From Segatella paludivivens DSM 17968 = JCM 13650 (GTDB lineage: Bacteria; Bacteroidota; Bacteroidia; Bacteroidales; Bacteroidaceae): a stretch of 64,000 bases of DNA. The position numbers and the translations under genes were made by a program. The stretch is taken from NCBI RefSeq assembly GCF_000373185.1, contig NZ_KB890627.1, forward strand, positions 1 through 64,000, read 5' to 3'. This document shows, piece after piece, positions 1-6,884 of this stretch (position 1 is the stretch's first letter; each line of letters begins with the position of its first letter). Under the pieces are notes generated by a model that saw only the letters and a program-made list of their open reading frames with translations, had not been told where the DNA came from and did not search any database.

Positions 1-546
1 CTTCGCGAAGCCGTTGTAGACATCATCAAGAGCATCGACGTAGTCAACGGTCGTGAGCGTGAAATCCAGAACATCGGCCACGGCATGCCCTATGAGTATA
101 TGAACCGCTTCATCTTCCCGAAGGTTTATCGCATCAAATATACGCTGACGTTCCGTCACGATGGTTTCGACAGCAACTCTGCTATGCAGCATCTGGGTTC
201 AAACCCTGCAACGATGACGCTGGGTGAACTCTATGCCACAGCCGGATTCTATAAGAAGGGTTCTCGCGAATACAACGATATCGTGGACCTGACCGCCCGC
301 CTCTTCCCTGATAATGCCGAGGCAAACATCAATGCAGCGGGCGTAGCTTTGACACGCAATGACGTAACCCTTGCCCATAAGTATCTCAAGCGTTGGGAGA
401 CAGATCCAAGAGCCTACTGCAATATGGGCCTTCTTTACCTTAGCGAGGGCAACCGTGATAAGGCAGAGGTTTATCTGAAGATGGCAAAGGCAGCAGGAGT
501 GAAACAGGCAGACAACGCCCTGAACGAACTCATGAAGCTCAAATAA
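1..546 (+). CDS. C-terminal part of a DUF3868/TPR-type fimbrial-locus protein (5' end outside window)
   Basis: The reading frame is open from the first base and ends at TAA 544-546, so only the last ~181 residues are present. The visible part has helical repeats with TPR character: the segment around 'AEANINAAGVALTRND' and 'AYCNMGLLYLSEGNRDKAEV' alternates small and large residues as TPR hairpins do. Proteins of this kind, with an N-terminal DUF3868 domain and a C-terminal TPR part, commonly sit just before fimbrillin genes in Bacteroidales, and a lipoprotein fimbrillin starts 37 bp downstream. A role in fimbrial assembly or in the outer membrane is inferred from that position. The family name rests on context and the C-terminal pattern only, because the diagnostic N-terminus is missing. 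An internal ATG at 85 is not the true start. Confidence 0.6.
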   Translation, partial: LREAVVDIIKSIDVVNGREREIQNIGHGMPYEYMNRFIFPKVYRIKYTLTFRHDGFDSNSAMQHLGSNPATMTLGELYATAGFYKKGSREYNDIVDLTARLFPDNAEANINAAGVALTRNDVTLAHKYLKRWETDPRAYCNMGLLYLSEGNRDKAEVYLKMAKAAGVKQADNALNELMKLK

Positions 547-583
547 CAAAGCAATTAAAACGATTGATCATAAATATAGCCTT

Positions 584-2398
584 ATGAAACATACATTATA
601 CATATCATCAATGTTGGCGGCATGTATGCTTCTTTTCTCCTGTGCGGCGGATAATACCGCCATACCGGAGAACGGCTCCTCTAAGTCTGCCGTTGTGAAC
701 CTCTCGCTTTCCACGGGTGCCGATACGCGTGCCAACGGTGCACTGCCAACGGACAAAGGCTCAGTAGTGGGAAGTAACGAGGGAACACTGAACCATATAT
801 GTGTGGGACTCTTTGATGCCAATGACAAGCTGGTGACCCTGTATGAGTATAATTACAGCGGAAATGAGAACGTTCCTACCCGTACTGATGCGGTAAAGAT
901 GCTGGTCTTTGCCAATGTGCCTGTGGGGGCATTTGCAGGGAAGTATGTGTTGAGTGACTTTTATACAGTGGCTCAGGACTTGGGGTATACAACTTCAGCT
1001 GACGGTAAGACAAAGACTGCCGTTACCACGGCAAACTCACAGAGTATGAAGTCGCTACCGATGATGTCGGATGTGCAGACATTAAACTGGGCATCAGGTA
1101 CAACCCTGAATCCGTCTGTAACGCTGAACCGTCTGGTAGCGCGTGTTGCATTGACTAATATCAGTTATAGTTTCAGTGGTTCATACACAGGCTGCTCTTT
1201 CACTCCCAAAGAGATATTCATGTATAATACAAGCAATCAGCTTACCAACTGGAATACAAAGGCTGTCAGCGGCAGTGTGAGTGGTGAGAACATTGCAGCG
1301 AATGCGAACACAGCCTATCTGGGCAGTGGAACAATCAGTTCATTCAGTAGCACTAGTCCCTATTACTTCTATGTGTTTCCTAACAGCAACACAACGGCAC
1401 CGACGAAGTTGGTTATAAAGGGAACCTTCACCACAAAGAGTGGCACGACATACACAACATATTATCCGATAACGGTAAACAGTAGTTCAGCAACAGGTAA
1501 TATCATATCAACGATAACAGGTGGAACAGGCGACTCAAAGATAAGTGCTAATACTACCTATGGACTGTCTGCGACCATATCAGGAACAGGAGTTAACAGT
1601 GTATCTGATGCACTTACTTCCACCAGCATTACCGTAACCACAAGTGTTGATAACTTCACGAATGCGACAATCGCGGAACATTTTGGTCCGGCTGTAGGTG
1701 ATATATATTATTCAGATGGCACATATAGCAATAATTATTATGCCAGCAAGACACCTATAGGCATCATAGTAAGTACTAATCCGGTCTATTGTGAGTCGAC
1801 AAATGGATATGGTCATGGACTTGTAATGGCGCTAAATGAAGCAATAAGTAGTGGCTGTTCATGGGGGGATGCAAGCGTTAATGAAAGTGTGCTGAGGGAT
1901 AACCCTACTTTAAATATCGCTTATACCGATTACAGTGGATTAACAAATACAAAAGCTATAGCAAGTTCCCATACATTATCAACGACTGCTCAAACGGGAT
2001 ATCCTGCTTTTTATTATGCGTATGTGGCGTATAAGAGCAGTGTTCCTGCGCCGACAAGTAGCAGCGGTTGGTTCTTACCAAGCGTAGGACAATGGTGGGA
2101 TGCTATGGAAAAAGCAGAAAAGAAATGTGGTTATACAGCTGATTTATTGAATCAGCATTATAATACAGGCATAGCATATATGAATAGTACGGAAACTGAT
2201 CAGGCATATAGTTCTTTGATTACATTAATGAGTAATTCTGGTGCTAATTATACAGCTTTGGTTAGGACCTTTTATTGGTGCAGTTCGGAAATGAATGGTG
2301 ATATATGGCGATATAATTTTGTCAATACTGATTACTTATTATGTAGTGGAAGTAAAAATAATTCAAATTGGCATGTTCGCGCCTTTCTAGCCTTCTAA
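584..2398 (+). CDS. Fimbrillin-type tip lipoprotein with C-terminal DUF1566/C-type-lectin-like variable domain
   Basis: This 604-residue protein has a lipoprotein signal with lipobox LFSC (Cys20). A Thr-Arg pair lies at residues 48-49, at the place where FimA/Mfa1-type fimbrillins are usually cut during maturation. Residues ~50-360 form the beta-rich fimbrillin part. From ~365 the protein changes to a DUF1566-like domain, with 'GDIYYSDGTYS', 'HGLVMALNEA' and 'GWFLPSVGQWWDA'. The last ~40 residues start at 'YWCSSE' and end in 'VRAFLAF', as DGR variable regions in Bacteroidetes C-type-lectin-fold proteins do. I infer a tip adhesin with a ligand-binding face. Base composition drops in GC where the lectin domain begins (near 1670), suggesting a joined domain. 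It lies 80 bp upstream of the shaft fimbrillin. Confidence 0.75.
   Translation: MKHTLYISSMLAACMLLFSCAADNTAIPENGSSKSAVVNLSLSTGADTRANGALPTDKGSVVGSNEGTLNHICVGLFDANDKLVTLYEYNYSGNENVPTRTDAVKMLVFANVPVGAFAGKYVLSDFYTVAQDLGYTTSADGKTKTAVTTANSQSMKSLPMMSDVQTLNWASGTTLNPSVTLNRLVARVALTNISYSFSGSYTGCSFTPKEIFMYNTSNQLTNWNTKAVSGSVSGENIAANANTAYLGSGTISSFSSTSPYYFYVFPNSNTTAPTKLVIKGTFTTKSGTTYTTYYPITVNSSSATGNIISTITGGTGDSKISANTTYGLSATISGTGVNSVSDALTSTSITVTTSVDNFTNATIAEHFGPAVGDIYYSDGTYSNNYYASKTPIGIIVSTNPVYCESTNGYGHGLVMALNEAISSGCSWGDASVNESVLRDNPTLNIAYTDYSGLTNTKAIASSHTLSTTAQTGYPAFYYAYVAYKSSVPAPTSSSGWFLPSVGQWWDAMEKAEKKCGYTADLLNQHYNTGIAYMNSTETDQAYSSLITLMSNSGANYTALVRTFYWCSSEMNGDIWRYNFVNTDYLLCSGSKNNSNWHVRAFLAF
2271..2398 (+). 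repeat. Putative DGR variable region 1 (3' end of tip gene 1)
   Basis: The last ~42 codons of the first tip gene encode a C-type-lectin-fold terminus of the kind diversified by DGRs: an aromatic-Trp start, 'SSE', a run of Asn, Ser, Tyr and Trp residues, and the closing 'VRAFLAF'. Many codons are AAT or one or two substitutions away from AAT (TAT, GAT, CAT, AGT, ACT, GTT), as expected if adenines of a template were randomised. It aligns with the end of the second tip gene at the protein level. No template repeat was found in the window, so assignment rests on pattern only. Confidence 0.5.
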
Positions 2399-2478
2399 AC
2401 CTCAATGATAGAACTTGTTAGTAATGCATTAAATAACAAAAATATAGAATAAGAATTAATAATAAAAAACGTGAGACT

Positions 2479-3576
2479 ATGAATAAGAATTATTTACTTA
2501 TTGCAGTACTGATGTCAGTCGGAATGATGACATCCTGCTCTTCTTCCGACACGGAAGAAACCCCAACCGTCGGTAATCCAGCAGTTGTAAGTCTGCAGCT
2601 TAACGGTAAGTCTATGACCCGTTCTGTGGCTTCTACTGACGAAGCTAAAATTACTGATGGTCAAGCTGCAGCATTTGATGCTTCCGGTGCCATAGTCGGA
2701 ACTGTGCAGAGCTTTTTAACAAGCACTTCAGCAACTCCGACTATCAGTACCACAACCCAGGCCACTCAGGTCAGCGTAGTTGCCAATCCTGGTTCTACTT
2801 CTGCATTTACTAGCATTGTAAATAAAACAAACCTTGAAGCAGTAACAACAGACTTGGCCAGTACAACTACATCTGCTACGACCGCAAATAGTCAGGATCC
2901 GACGAAACTTCCAAAGTATGGTAATACAACTCTTACTTTTGGCACCGATTCAAAAGCAAATCCTACGGTTGATATGTACAACCTTGTAGGGAAGATAAAG
3001 TTGAGTTCTATCAAAACAAACTTTCTCGGAACAGGTTATGCTGGAGCTACATTCGTGCCGAAGGAAGTCTTCCTGTATAATGCTAATACTACTAGTACAT
3101 TCGGTGGTACAGGTTCTGCTCCACAGACTGGTGAAAATACTGATAATACAAATTATGCAGTTACCACTCCGAACAATTACTATTATTTGAGTTCTGGTGT
3201 AATTGCAAGTTATAATGAGTCTTCACCTACGCCTTATACCTTCTATGCATTTCCTAATACAAGCACAACGACACCTACAAAGATTGTCATAAAGGGTGCA
3301 TTCACTCCTAGTGGGGGTACAGCAGAGTATGTTTATTATCCAATTACTATAAACAAGTTTCAGGACGGAACAACCATTACAAAGGGTGGAAGTGCACTGT
3401 CCTCAGCTGATGCAAGCGACTCAAAGATCGTGCAGAGTACAAGCTATGATGTAAGTATCACAATCAGTGGAAAGGGTGTAAAAACTCCAGACAGCAATAT
3501 CACTCCTGCTACGGCAACAATCACAATGAATGTCAAGGACTGGACCGATTATACTCAGGTCGTAACTGTTAAGTAA
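2479..3576 (+). CDS. Major fimbrial shaft subunit (fimbrillin, lipoprotein)
   Basis: This 365-residue protein has a lipoprotein signal ending in MTSC (Cys20) and a Thr-Arg pair at residues 47-48, followed by a beta-rich, Thr/Ser-rich body. The C-terminus 'NVKDWTDYTQVVTVK' is typical of fimbrillins that polymerise by strand exchange, where a terminal strand near a conserved Trp fills a neighbour. In the FimA/Mfa1 family the lipidated precursor reaches the outer membrane and arginine-specific cleavage frees a strand-accepting groove. The gene lies between a long tip gene and the FimB/Mfa2 anchor, the usual order of such operons. It has no C-terminal lectin domain, which separates it from the two tip genes and supports a shaft role. 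Confidence 0.8.
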   Translation: MNKNYLLIAVLMSVGMMTSCSSSDTEETPTVGNPAVVSLQLNGKSMTRSVASTDEAKITDGQAAAFDASGAIVGTVQSFLTSTSATPTISTTTQATQVSVVANPGSTSAFTSIVNKTNLEAVTTDLASTTTSATTANSQDPTKLPKYGNTTLTFGTDSKANPTVDMYNLVGKIKLSSIKTNFLGTGYAGATFVPKEVFLYNANTTSTFGGTGSAPQTGENTDNTNYAVTTPNNYYYLSSGVIASYNESSPTPYTFYAFPNTSTTTPTKIVIKGAFTPSGGTAEYVYYPITINKFQDGTTITKGGSALSSADASDSKIVQSTSYDVSITISGKGVKTPDSNITPATATITMNVKDWTDYTQVVTVK

Positions 3577-3608
3577 AAATATAGGATACAATAAAACGAA
3601 ATCGTATT

Positions 3609-4514
3609 ATGAAGTTAAGATATTACCATCATCTACTGTTGTTCTCGCTGTTGTTGTTGCTTGCCTCGTGCATCAATGATGACTATTCCGACTGCGTTCA
3701 ATGCTCTGTGATTGTGTCGCAAACGGACAGTGTTGGCAACGCCTTAACAGCAAATGTGAAGGGTAATATGATGGCATATCTCTTCATAGACGGTAAGTTT
3801 GACCGTATCGTCACATCAGATCCTGACAGCAGTTATAAAATTAGCTATGACGGCAGAAATGGAAATGCGTCCTTAGTGACTATAGGCAGTTCGGATAAAG
3901 ACAGTGCTCAGATATTTACACCTGCAGTAGGATCAGACATGAATTCTATATCTGTAAGTGTAAAGCCCGATCCTCTCACGGGGGAATATATTCTCCCGTC
4001 TTCACTATATTATGGTACTTATGCCATCAGTTCTCAAACAGCAGGTGTAAGTACCGTATACGGTAATATTGTTATGAAGAAGAAACCTGCAACGGTTCAT
4101 GTTGTTATCAGACAACTCAAGGAGTATTTCGGAGACAGGGATTATAAGGTTGTCCTGTCAGGATTCCGCAGTACCATGACCTTTGCAGGACAGATAACTG
4201 GAGATTCTATAGAATACTCTCCCTCAGCAGTTTTTGATACATCTAATCAACTGGTGACAAGCCGCGTTCATACTTTTCCAACTATGCAGAATGAATACGT
4301 GACAGTATCGGTGTTCAGTAATCCCGACGGATCAGCTAAGTCTCGTTCTTCAATGACGCAGCTTATCTGGAGTACCAACCGTGACAGTTATGGCAACAGA
4401 GTAACTCTAAATTCTGGTGATGACAAGGTAATCATCGTAGACTGTAGCAGCAAGCAGTTGACTTTGAATGTCATGCCTTGGAGTGATTATACGCAGCATG
4501 TCTTTATACCGTAA
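3609..4514 (+). CDS. FimB/Mfa2 family fimbrial anchor lipoprotein
   Basis: This 301-residue lipoprotein (lipobox LASC, Cys21) has the Cys-rich start 'INDDYSDCVQC' typical of the FimB/Mfa2 family, followed by 'MMAYLFIDGKFD'. These proteins sit at the base of the fimbria, anchor it to the outer membrane and limit its length. The C-terminal half contains strands of the two-domain transthyretin-like fold and ends in 'LNVMPWSDYTQHVFIP'. It starts 32 bp after the shaft gene and ends 25 bp before the second tip gene, so it belongs to the same operon. Unlike the neighbouring fimbrillins, it has no obvious Thr-Arg maturation site after the lipobox, consistent with an anchor that stays lipidated. Confidence 0.82.
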   Translation: MKLRYYHHLLLFSLLLLLASCINDDYSDCVQCSVIVSQTDSVGNALTANVKGNMMAYLFIDGKFDRIVTSDPDSSYKISYDGRNGNASLVTIGSSDKDSAQIFTPAVGSDMNSISVSVKPDPLTGEYILPSSLYYGTYAISSQTAGVSTVYGNIVMKKKPATVHVVIRQLKEYFGDRDYKVVLSGFRSTMTFAGQITGDSIEYSPSAVFDTSNQLVTSRVHTFPTMQNEYVTVSVFSNPDGSAKSRSSMTQLIWSTNRDSYGNRVTLNSGDDKVIIVDCSSKQLTLNVMPWSDYTQHVFIP

Positions 4515-4539
4515 CCTATAGAATTAGGCATAAACAATT

Positions 4540-6291
4540 ATGATGAGAAGAATATCATATCTACTATATATATTATTTACATTGGCATTCGTTTCTTCTT
4601 GTAACACGATGGACGACATGCTTGATGAAAACAAGGATGCTGCTACGCTGACTGTAAAGATAGCGCAGCAGGATCCGAAGACGGTAGTCACACGAACGAT
4701 CAGTGATGCGATAGAGAATGTGAATGTACTTGTCTTTGATGCTCAAGGACATTTAATAGGTAGTACGTACGCCTCAAGCAGCCCCACATCGGTTTCTGTT
4801 TCAGCGAGGGAAGGTAGTGGCTGTACTGTCTGTGCCATCGCCAACACAGGTAGTAGTTCCTATTTTGACGGTATAAGCACACTTACTGAACTACAGGCGA
4901 AGGTAACTTCAACATTGGCATCAGCGGATGCACTGGGAGCAAAGAGTAATGAGATATTATACGGTACGATTCCTGGTGTAACGCTGAGCAGTGGAATAAA
5001 TACTCAGGCCGTTTCTTTAAGACGATTATACAGTAAATACACATTTACGATAACACCTTCAAGTGATATTGCAATAACTGCTTATCAGCTTTGCAATGTA
5101 CCCAATGAATGTTATATTGCATCGGGGAATACATCAAATCCCTCTACAGGATTTTCTGGTTTGAGTTTCGGTTCAGTGACAACTTCAGGTTCTATCGGTT
5201 CCCCCGTTACAGCAGGACCGTATTATATCTATGAGAACTTGGCTGGTACATCCTCAGCATCAAATACTGCAGAATTGAGAACTGCAGCGAATGCACCCAG
5301 CGGTGCTTCTTATTTGTTGATAACAGCAACAAGCAAGGTTGGAGTAGGAGCAGGATGGAAGTCAACATATAGAGTGTTTTTGGGCGGGGTTACTAATGCA
5401 ATAACTCCAGTTGTGGATTATACGAACTTTAATATTAATAGAGATTTTGATTATAAATGCAACATATCCATTGTTGGAAGTGGAATAAATGATGTCAGAG
5501 TTACTTATACTCCAAATAGTACTCGCACTCAATTATACTATACAGGCGATGCAACAGTCGGAAACTATTTGTATAACGATGGTTCTAACGGAACTACATT
5601 CAAGTCAGGTCAGACGGTTGGCATAATCTATTCAAATGAACTGACGCAGGCCCAATATAATGCAGGTTGCCGTCATGGTAGAGTGCTGGCACTTAAAAAT
5701 GCAAATAGTAATAATTATGGCACTTGGTGTGACGATGGTTCATCATCTCCTTATACAGACCACAGCAGTACTGGTCACCCTTATGTATCAGATTTCAAGA
5801 CATGCTTTCAAGATGTAAGCAGTGGTTATGATGCCCTGAGCGCCAACAGTAGCTACGTAAATACCAGCAGTAACTATGCTTGGTATTATTGTAATAATTA
5901 CAGCGATGGTACTACACATAGTAATGACTTAGTGGGTAAAAATTGGTATCTTCCCAGTGTAGGTGATTGGTGGGATATAACGGAGAACCTCGGAACTTGG
6001 TCAGCTTCAGACAAGACAACGTTAACAACTAATCGTAGCAGTACAACTGGTTTGGAAAATTATATAATCTCAACTTCTAGTGGATCGTACTTTGATGCCT
6101 TGAATGTGAAATTAAATGCAGCGAGTGGCAATCCTATAGTTCCAAGTAATGGTGCGTATTATTTTTGGTCAGCCTCAGAGGCTGGTAGCGGTGCTGCGGT
6201 ACGTTTCTACTTAGGCTATGAAGGCGTCTACTTGGGCGGCTACAGCAATAAGACGAATGTCAATTTCTACAGGGCCGTCCTAGCTTTTTAA
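4540..6291 (+). CDS. Second fimbrillin-type tip lipoprotein with DUF1566/C-type-lectin-like variable domain
   Basis: This 583-residue lipoprotein (lipobox VSSC, Cys21) has 'VVTRT' with Arg52 at the presumed maturation site and 'NVLVFDAQGHLIGS' as the first fimbrillin strand pair. The N-terminal ~330 residues are fimbrillin-like. The remainder matches the layout of tip gene 1: 'GNYLYNDGSNG', 'HGRVLALKNA', 'NWYLPSVGDWWDI', then a final segment from 'YYFWSASE' to 'YRAVLAF'. That final segment has the residue and codon pattern of a DGR variable region. A surface adhesin with a diversified binding face is inferred. The start could be either of two adjacent ATGs (4540 or 4543). A short Avd-like gene follows 100 bp downstream. 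Confidence 0.78.
   Translation: MMRRISYLLYILFTLAFVSSCNTMDDMLDENKDAATLTVKIAQQDPKTVVTRTISDAIENVNVLVFDAQGHLIGSTYASSSPTSVSVSAREGSGCTVCAIANTGSSSYFDGISTLTELQAKVTSTLASADALGAKSNEILYGTIPGVTLSSGINTQAVSLRRLYSKYTFTITPSSDIAITAYQLCNVPNECYIASGNTSNPSTGFSGLSFGSVTTSGSIGSPVTAGPYYIYENLAGTSSASNTAELRTAANAPSGASYLLITATSKVGVGAGWKSTYRVFLGGVTNAITPVVDYTNFNINRDFDYKCNISIVGSGINDVRVTYTPNSTRTQLYYTGDATVGNYLYNDGSNGTTFKSGQTVGIIYSNELTQAQYNAGCRHGRVLALKNANSNNYGTWCDDGSSSPYTDHSSTGHPYVSDFKTCFQDVSSGYDALSANSSYVNTSSNYAWYYCNNYSDGTTHSNDLVGKNWYLPSVGDWWDITENLGTWSASDKTTLTTNRSSTTGLENYIISTSSGSYFDALNVKLNAASGNPIVPSNGAYYFWSASEAGSGAAVRFYLGYEGVYLGGYSNKTNVNFYRAVLAF
6163..6291 (+). repeat. Putative DGR variable region 2 (3' end of tip gene 2)
   Basis: From about 6205 to the stop, the codons are strikingly enriched in NNC: TTC, TAC, GGC, GTC, TAC, GGC, GGC, TAC, AGC, GTC, TTC, TAC. 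The rest of the gene prefers NNT. This is what adenine-specific mutagenesis of AAC codons gives: the two adenines become any base while the final C is kept. The protein end aligns with tip gene 1 and both finish RA(V/F)LAF. A template repeat is not present in the window. Confidence 0.6.
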
Positions 6292-6391
6292 CTATTTATC
6301 TATTTAATAATTTATCTATAAAAAATATTATGTGTATACAACATTTTAAACACCGCCTGTGACGGTCGACAATCTAAAAACGAAAGTACCT

Positions 6392-6583
6392 ATGGCATTA
6401 TCACATGACTTACCAATCTATCGTGATACAATGAAGTTATTGAGTTTAATAATCGAAAAGACTAAATGTTACCCTCGCTTCTACCTTTATACGGTTGGCG
6501 AAAAGATGGTGAATATCAATCTGGATATGTTGTCTCTGATATATAGAGCAAACAGCAGTTACGAAAACAAGCATGATGATTGA
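6392..6583 (+). pseudogene. Truncated Avd-like (DGR accessory variability determinant) gene
   Basis: The 63-residue product starting at ATG 6392 contains 'LPIYRDTMKLLSLI', 'YLYTVGEKM' and 'LSLIYRANSS'. These are hallmark segments of Avd, the four-helix-bundle protein that works with the reverse transcriptase in DGRs. Family members are usually ~110-130 residues long; this one stops after the second helix. In the next frame the bases after 6570 read 'MMIELLIKYNNDA' before a stop, which loosely resembles the third helix and may point to a frameshift. An upstream GTG at 6359 is also in frame, but the family match begins near 6392. The place directly after a variable-region gene is where Avd normally lies. 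I call it a decayed gene; a functional short form cannot be excluded. Confidence 0.6.
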
Positions 6584-6734
6584 ACTTCTAATTAAATATA
6601 ACAACGATGCTTAATAGCATTAGATAAAAAGATATAACTCAATTCGGATGCCTGTCAATGATTCAGCAATCGCTGCATCATGAAGAAAAAAGATTCGTGA
6701 GAACCGATGGCGTCTAATAATTATCACTATAATT

Positions 6735-6760
6735 AGATAGAATACTTTATTCTATCTTTC
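6735..6760 (+). terminator. Hairpin with short T-tail, first of a tandem pair
   Basis: AGATAGAATA (6735-6744) pairs perfectly with TATTCTATCT (6748-6757) across a 3-base loop, followed by TT. It could be the first terminator of the fimbrial/Avd transcript. Confidence 0.45.
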
Positions 6761-6816
6761 CTCGGATTGATGATAAATTGATTTGAGGAATTCACACAAG
6801 CGTGTGTGTCTTTCGA

Positions 6817-6848
6817 AAGCCTTTCCCCGTGAGGGGAGGGGCTTTTTT
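6817..6848 (+). terminator. Rho-independent terminator of the fimbrial operon
   Basis: The stem 6817-6828 (AAGCCTTTCCCC) pairs with 6833-6844 (GGGGAGGGGCTT), with two G-T pairs, over the loop GTGA. A run of six T follows at 6843-6848. It is the strongest terminator between the fimbrial genes and the convergent rhamnosidase operon. A GC-rich mini-hairpin (CGCCCA/TGGGCG, 6854-6868) follows at once. Confidence 0.7.
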
Positions 6849-6884
6849 GGGTTCGCCCAGCATGGGCGGTGGTGTGAGGGGACA

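Follow-up and report, generated by a model that had tools for sequence, protein, structure and literature searches.

A probable former target of a diversity-generating retroelement, apparently frozen after loss of the retroelement core, in a type V pilus operon of Segatella paludivivens

The first genes of a 64,000-nucleotide stretch of Segatella paludivivens DSM 17968 = JCM 13650 (contig NZ_KB890627.1, positions 1 to 64,000; hereafter, the window) form a pilus operon with two tip genes that end in lectin-like domains, followed by a fragment of Avd, a protein of diversity-generating retroelements (DGRs). This layout raises the question of whether the tip adhesins were, or still are, diversified by a reverse transcriptase (RT) encoded elsewhere, as a reading of the sequence alone had proposed. 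Our results divide that proposal: past diversification is supported for the second tip, on the evidence of an excision scar behind its gene, and unsupported for the first, and diversification in the present is unsupported for both. Hence, we think it probable that this type V pilus operon contains a former DGR target whose retroelement core has been deleted, that is, a decayed and apparently frozen DGR. The window opens contig C2 of its genome (G000; 3.46 Mb, 61 contigs, 99.96% complete), and the open reading frames (ORFs) in question, with coordinates re-checked, lie at 584-2398, 2479-3576, 3609-4514, 4540-6291, and 6359-6583.

The comparison on which this reading turns is with a close relative (G024, one contig), which turned up in a search for the second tip through 100 genomes of the genus and whose genes flanking the DGR are 91-96% identical to those of G000. 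Its genome has one RVT_1 match, and its locus L015 reads, in order, tyrosine recombinase, DUF3575, DUF3868/TPR, fimbrillin, anchor, tip, Avd (119 amino acids), MutS_I protein (148 amino acids, between avd and the template), template repeat (TR), and RT. Specifically, 15 of the 35 template adenines in the aligned codons are changed in the variable region (VR), and none of the 82 other sites is; two further TR/VR mismatches lie beyond the coding end of the VR, and a hairpin follows the VR. Given this gene order and the adenine-only differences, L015 is therefore a complete DGR inside a pilus operon.

The second tip of the window shares 47% identity with the G024 DGR variable protein over nearly its whole length and is thus homologous to a protein with an adenine-patterned TR/VR pair, which supports its placement in the DGR variable-protein family. 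Matches to it number at least 13 in G000 (13 of 26 candidates scored) and at least 13 in G024 (13 of 28 scored). The features of the second tip gene and of the DNA behind it are as follows:

4540..6291, + strand: second tip, with a fimbrillin body and a DGR-family variable lectin (47% identity to the G024 variable protein)
6169..6288, + strand: putative fossil VR of the second tip, from alignment to the G024 template
6352..6366, + strand: inverted repeat ACCGCC-TGT-GACGGT with one mismatch, 3' of the VR; a perfect copy lies in the intact DGR
6392..6623, + strand: avd remnant, from its start to about codon 80, the frame being lost after about codon 58 and the ORF stopping at 6583
6628..6645, + strand: stub of the RT gene end, with 10 exact bases at 6636-6645, from alignment with the G024 RT end and 15 other scarred loci
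6691..6850, + strand: the RT gene's own 3' flanking DNA, from BLAST to L015; a terminator-like hairpin lies at about 6818-6847

The inverted repeat is a possible candidate for a DGR cruciform, a role that we take from the DGR literature and assign to it as an assumption.

The Avd fragment proposed from the sequence proved genuine. ORF 6359-6583 matches phrog_3206, "Avd protein of DGR" (E 2.9e-10), and the fragment, which likely starts at the ATG at 6392 rather than at the GTG at 6359, is 95% identical over 58 residues to the intact Avd beside the RT in G024. The DNA of the window aligns with intact avd to about codon 80 (further in L016), and the RT stub follows; positions 6646-6690 are diverged from the intact locus, and 6691-6755 again match L015 7365-7296, at 80% identity over 70 bp, in a stretch that begins 19 bases beyond the RT stop. 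Thus, the 5' part of avd, the RT end motif, and the RT 3' flank stand in DGR order beside a VR gene, and this direct run of avd into the remains of the RT gene points to a deletion, downstream of the second tip, of the 3' part of avd, the MutS-like gene, the template, and the RT.

Further, the scar is common to a whole set of operons. We took the DNA that follows the tip stop codon and aligned the intact locus with 16 RT-less loci, seven in G000 (the window, C17, C31, C45, C60, C8, and C2b) and nine in G024. The ACTCAATTC of the RT end, where the intact protein ends in ...KKENSILRCPW*, is present in all 16, as is a BLAST match to the RT 3' flank (E 2.4e-8 or better), which in eight of the nine G024 loci starts within the RT codons (84-96% over 97-235 bp). 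An avd piece was found by tblastn in 12 of the 16 and in none of C8, C2b, L044, and L047; the two avd types have one common RT-side tail. A different outcome is seen in G250 (one contig, no RVT_1 match). Its Avd is intact, and behind it lie about 25 codons that by eye resemble the beginning of the MutS-like gene, and then other DNA; there, the core was therefore lost through another break. Another avd remnant lies beside a recombinase gene at G000:C19:2347-2469 (L116), with no tip match in 4 kb there.

The VRs of the tip family carry a second kind of record. For comparisons with the template, we used a motif-filtered tip list (nine tips of G000 and six of G024 besides the RT-adjacent one), which left out several tips, including G024 331, 2744, and 3495 and C57a of G000. 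Among the G000 tips, alignment columns with at least three states fall at 26 of 35 template-adenine positions and at 31 of 82 others (p=2.8e-4), and when the 15 VRs not beside an RT are compared with the G024 template, all 15 have a higher mismatch rate at adenines (8 of 15 at p<0.05). The window VR itself differs from this template at 20 of 35 adenine and 31 of 82 non-adenine sites (p=0.042). In a separate codon-position test on 22 tips taken by coordinates, an excess of VR-core changes at codon positions 1+2 over position 3 reached p<0.05 in 24 of the 34 pairs with <27% divergence over up to 154 upstream codons. For the family, then, these patterns read as a DGR footprint, and its VRs were mutagenised at some time.

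How the scar and the footprint relate in time has two possible answers. It may be that the RT-less operons spread first, that their VRs were diversified later in trans by a core elsewhere, and that this core was then lost here, an extension of the reading given above that we rate as a serious contender, if somewhat less likely than its opposite. The scar is common to 16 loci, yet scar-bearing VR pairs differ in the DGR manner, the strongest cross-species pairs with similar lectins being C17 with G024 2808 (25 vs 6 changes) and C45 with G024 2788 (23 vs 4). This order of events is opposed by the circumstance that the scar may instead have spread by recombination after diversification, as the two avd types with one RT-side tail would allow, and that, among the VRs compared, only the RT-adjacent one fits the surviving template.

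Several results weigh against a deleted and frozen DGR in the window. First, one of 200 random 310-bp pieces of the window outscored the RT flank match (113 vs 55.4 bits; the next reached 32.8), and the seven G000 loci, together with L041, carry only the short RT motif and then diverged bases, their BLAST match starting 19 bases past the RT stop. Second, 10 of the 34 codon-position pairs do not reach p<0.05; the pairs share sequences and columns and are therefore not independent, and part of the column result could arise from exposure and selection instead. The 15 RT-less VRs also mismatch the G024 template at 19-38 of 82 non-adenine sites, so this template is not their direct source, and they would derive from other or older templates. 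Third, between the window VR and that of its nearest relative, C31, changes at codon positions 1+2 and 3 number 12 vs 6 (p=0.11); because this pair is not significant, the evidence for the second tip's own DGR history lies more in the scar than in its VR. Fourth, structure models of both lectin domains, made from the window sequences alone, reach a predicted local distance difference test score (pLDDT) of only 30 and 27, too low to support a C-type-lectin fold. Finally, the G000 assembly is a 61-contig draft that is broken near tip loci, and its uvrA-like and carB-like genes, between which the DGR stretch of G024 lies, are on different contigs; neither junction carries that stretch, and loss and gain therefore cannot be distinguished there. 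The stretch in question (G024:C1:74.2-97.8 kb; L085, L015) also holds, by eye, restriction-, methyltransferase-, and HigA-like genes. C17 was considered as its positional counterpart and ruled out, since the DNA on either side of the G024 locus has its counterparts on C60 and C13.

Could a functional core nevertheless reside in the same genome? An RVT_1 search of G000 gave no match and no first-look candidate, with control genomes positive, and the G024 RT protein had no match there at E<=1e-30. A query with G024 core DNA (RT, template, and MutS-like gene) found three tip VRs in G000, at C8, C17, and C57 (E 4.7e-14, 2.0e-12, and 0.02), beyond which there were only matches of 16-43 bases with E>0.1 (those at E<1 spanning 18-43 bases) and no RT or MutS-like DNA. 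Queries with the RT and MutS-like proteins had no match in 56 contig-end stretches of G000. A near-copy of the VRs that could serve as template was likewise sought: the G024 TR region matches only VRs, and an adenine-tolerant scan of selected G000 loci gave only other VRs and chance-level matches, a scan that a diverged template elsewhere could escape. Nor was a full-length Avd found in G000, since no avd match extends past residue 84 of 119 and the frame in the window is broken.

Two rivals bear on these searches. An RT present in the strain may have dropped out of the draft assembly between repeats, which we regard as improbable. Variable-protein loci of G000 do lie near contig ends, and an RT would sit between the avd and tail repeats; the RT, MutS-like gene, and TR would, however, amount to about 2 kb, and the assembly keeps contigs as short as 1337 bp. 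With such contigs kept and no match at the contig ends, loss of such a piece is therefore unlikely; nothing similar was found, and the scarred locus of the window is itself assembled without a break. Still less credible is that an RT and template elsewhere in G000 continue to diversify the tips in trans. Remote targets are reported for other DGRs in the parts of two studies consulted (PMC7517822, PMC4891356), and avd, VR, and hairpin are partly kept in the window. Against it stand the genome without an RT match, without similar RT or MutS-like DNA, and without a template in the scanned loci, the avd matches that end by residue 84, and the static VR of the first tip. The claim of continued diversification was thus not borne out.

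The first tip and the rest of the operon behave as a separate case. The remaining features of the operon are as follows:

1..546, + strand: 3' part of a DUF3868/TPR protein gene, cut by the contig edge (TPR matches)
584..2398, + strand: first tip, with a fimbrillin body and a C-terminal lectin-like domain, its VR-like end not diversifying (Pfam, ortholog comparison)
2479..3576, + strand: fimbrillin (stalk-type) subunit, with sub-cutoff FimA-like C-terminal matches and 31% identity to the G024 fimbrillin
3609..4514, + strand: Mfa2-type anchor subunit (Pfam Mfa2, E 2.3e-13)

The expected layout of four fimbrial genes, two of them lectin-ended, with an Avd fragment after them, is confirmed by ORF positions, Pfam, and phrog matches, and the operon is of the type V (Mfa/Fim) kind: Mfa2 scores over its cutoff on the anchor, and P_gingi_FimA scores over its cutoff on the second tip, which also matches DUF4906, with sub-cutoff FimA-like matches in 584-2398 and 2479-3576. 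The product of 1-546 matches, at 95% identity, residues 309-489 of the DUF3868/TPR protein of G024, whose gene precedes the pilins in related operons. As for the "DUF1566-like" lectin ends, a resemblance stands and a family assignment does not, as Pfam gave no DUF1566 match at E<=1; NCBIfam gave a very weak FISUMP match to the first tip (E 0.41), and a PDB sequence search gave no match for the window protein, the best being E 0.078 for the family profile.

The ortholog of the first tip lies at G024 L043, to which window positions 1-5515 are 81% identical. Its VR core differs from that ortholog at 6 of 84 sites (7.1%) and the domain upstream at 14.5%; with the core changed less than the domain before it, the first-tip VR has therefore been stable since the species split and is not diversifying, an ordinary relative without sign of recent diversification. 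The proposal of diversified tips is thus not supported for this tip. In another first-tip pair, C2b with G024 2804, the VR is strongly diverged (43 of 84 sites; positions 1+2, p=0.0012), which may reflect a DGR or domain exchange. The L043 match within the second tip stops at window 5515, which is the start of the lectin domain, and identity profiles point to swaps of lectin types among the pilin bodies of several loci. That the operon makes ordinary lectin-tipped pili that never belonged to a DGR, the Avd fragment being a coincidence, is the least tenable reading of all: FISUMP/DUF1566-type ends are common outside DGRs and the first tip behaves accordingly, but the Avd remnant is 95% identical to a DGR Avd and is followed by the RT end motif and RT 3' flank with order and orientation kept, and the homologous G024 tip has an adenine-patterned TR/VR pair, so that, for the second tip, the scar largely contradicts it.

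The sister operons point to how such adhesins may be expressed. All 10 loci examined have inverted repeats of 17-28 bp between the recombinase gene and DUF3575, enclosing about 220-250 bp, which is the layout of a putative invertible promoter; the window lacks the recombinase-DUF3575 part. At G000:C57:137-141 kb (L040), three tandem lipoprotein-like genes have DGR-type lectin ends and no pilin body and lie downstream of a recombinase 83% like that of the pilus operons. The 3915-bp contig C43 of G000 (L139) carries the recombinase, DUF3575, and DUF3868/TPR genes of one more pilus operon and ends shortly behind them, where a fimbrillin-like gene begins. Stretches near operons (L015 5622-5831, C17 1-315, and the end of C57, L091) match one another at 86-87% and resemble interspersed non-coding repeats.

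Across the genus, a relative of the G024 RT (E<=1e-30) occurs in 22 of 398 genomes, and the tip family (E<=1e-20) occurs in 5 of 396, G000 among them, in a search that scored no more than three candidates for each genome. Partial tip matches occur in G254 (71% complete) and G161, which have no and three RVT_1 matches, respectively, and G250 has seven tip matches. G077 has an order similar to that of L015 (TPR, fimbrillin-like, anchor-like, tip, Avd, MutS-like, RT), its Avd and RT found by search and the rest by eye from ORFs. In its draft (L019 6057-8120), the pilus-tip VR is a run of N, possibly an assembly failure at variable DNA, and a second N run lies upstream of the pilus operon.

Taken as a deleted DGR, the window would have the following history. 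A retroelement core consisting of the 3' third of avd, the MutS-like gene, the template, and the RT would once have adjoined the second tip and then been excised, leaving the tip, the 5' part of avd, a short RT remnant, and the RT 3' flank. The present VR would be the frozen product of past mutagenesis, and adhesin variation would now come from on/off switching of operons and from recombination of lectin domains between them, not from mutagenic retrohoming. The genome would thus apparently hold a set of once hypervariable adhesins, now frozen. More tentatively, and with the odds in our view leaning the other way, the scarred operons could be non-autonomous DGR targets that multiply and shuffle and are diversified anew in trans in any strain that has an intact core. 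If so, the DGR core would act like an autonomous element and its targets like satellites, and invertible promoters would select the stored adhesin on display. The excision scar shared by 16 pilus loci in a pair of close relatives, with a single intact core found in G024 and none in G000, is a physical record of a hypermutation system removed and its products kept. It makes directly testable, in strains, the idea that DGRs invent binders that are later fixed and stored, and it shows that a tally of RTs can overlook genomes that DGRs have shaped.

RT-less DGR targets are already known. In Treponema denticola, VR target genes in isolates without RT and TR were read as remnants (PMC4891356); unlike the tips herein, 62% of its targets have lipoprotein signals, and the parts of that report consulted describe no common avd-RT excision scar. 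Cyanobacteria have dispersed variable-protein paralogs, of which one retains remnant TR-VR homology and has no RT close by, and the authors, in the sections consulted, suggest that diversification components are removed once a variant is selected (PMC7517822). Hosts and proteins differ there, and no RT pseudogene is described near that paralog, whereas the window has a deletion scar. Multiple VRs occur in 271 of 948 DGRs according to one partly consulted survey (PMC6642488), and another, in the portion seen, would not detect remote targets (PMC8144416). In the excerpts of the literature searched, we recognised no description of a pilus-operon family with a common avd-RT excision scar, and such a scar-sharing family is without precedent found there.

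The classical layout of Avd, TR, VR, and RT is that of the Bordetella BPP-1 type DGR. The G024 cassette is like it in having avd, a TR, an adenine-patterned VR, an RT, and a hairpin after the VR, and unlike it in the MutS_I-domain gene between avd and TR; the window retains only the 5' part of avd and the RT end. The closest parallel lies in Bacteroides, where DGRs diversify the tip pilins of type V pili, as given in the part consulted of a review citing Macadangdang et al. 2024 (PMC12632263). As far as this account at second hand allows a comparison, the two systems agree in a tip pilin with a C-terminal binding domain as the DGR target, one such cassette being intact in G024, and differ in that, in the window, the core appears deleted and the target belongs to a dispersed family.

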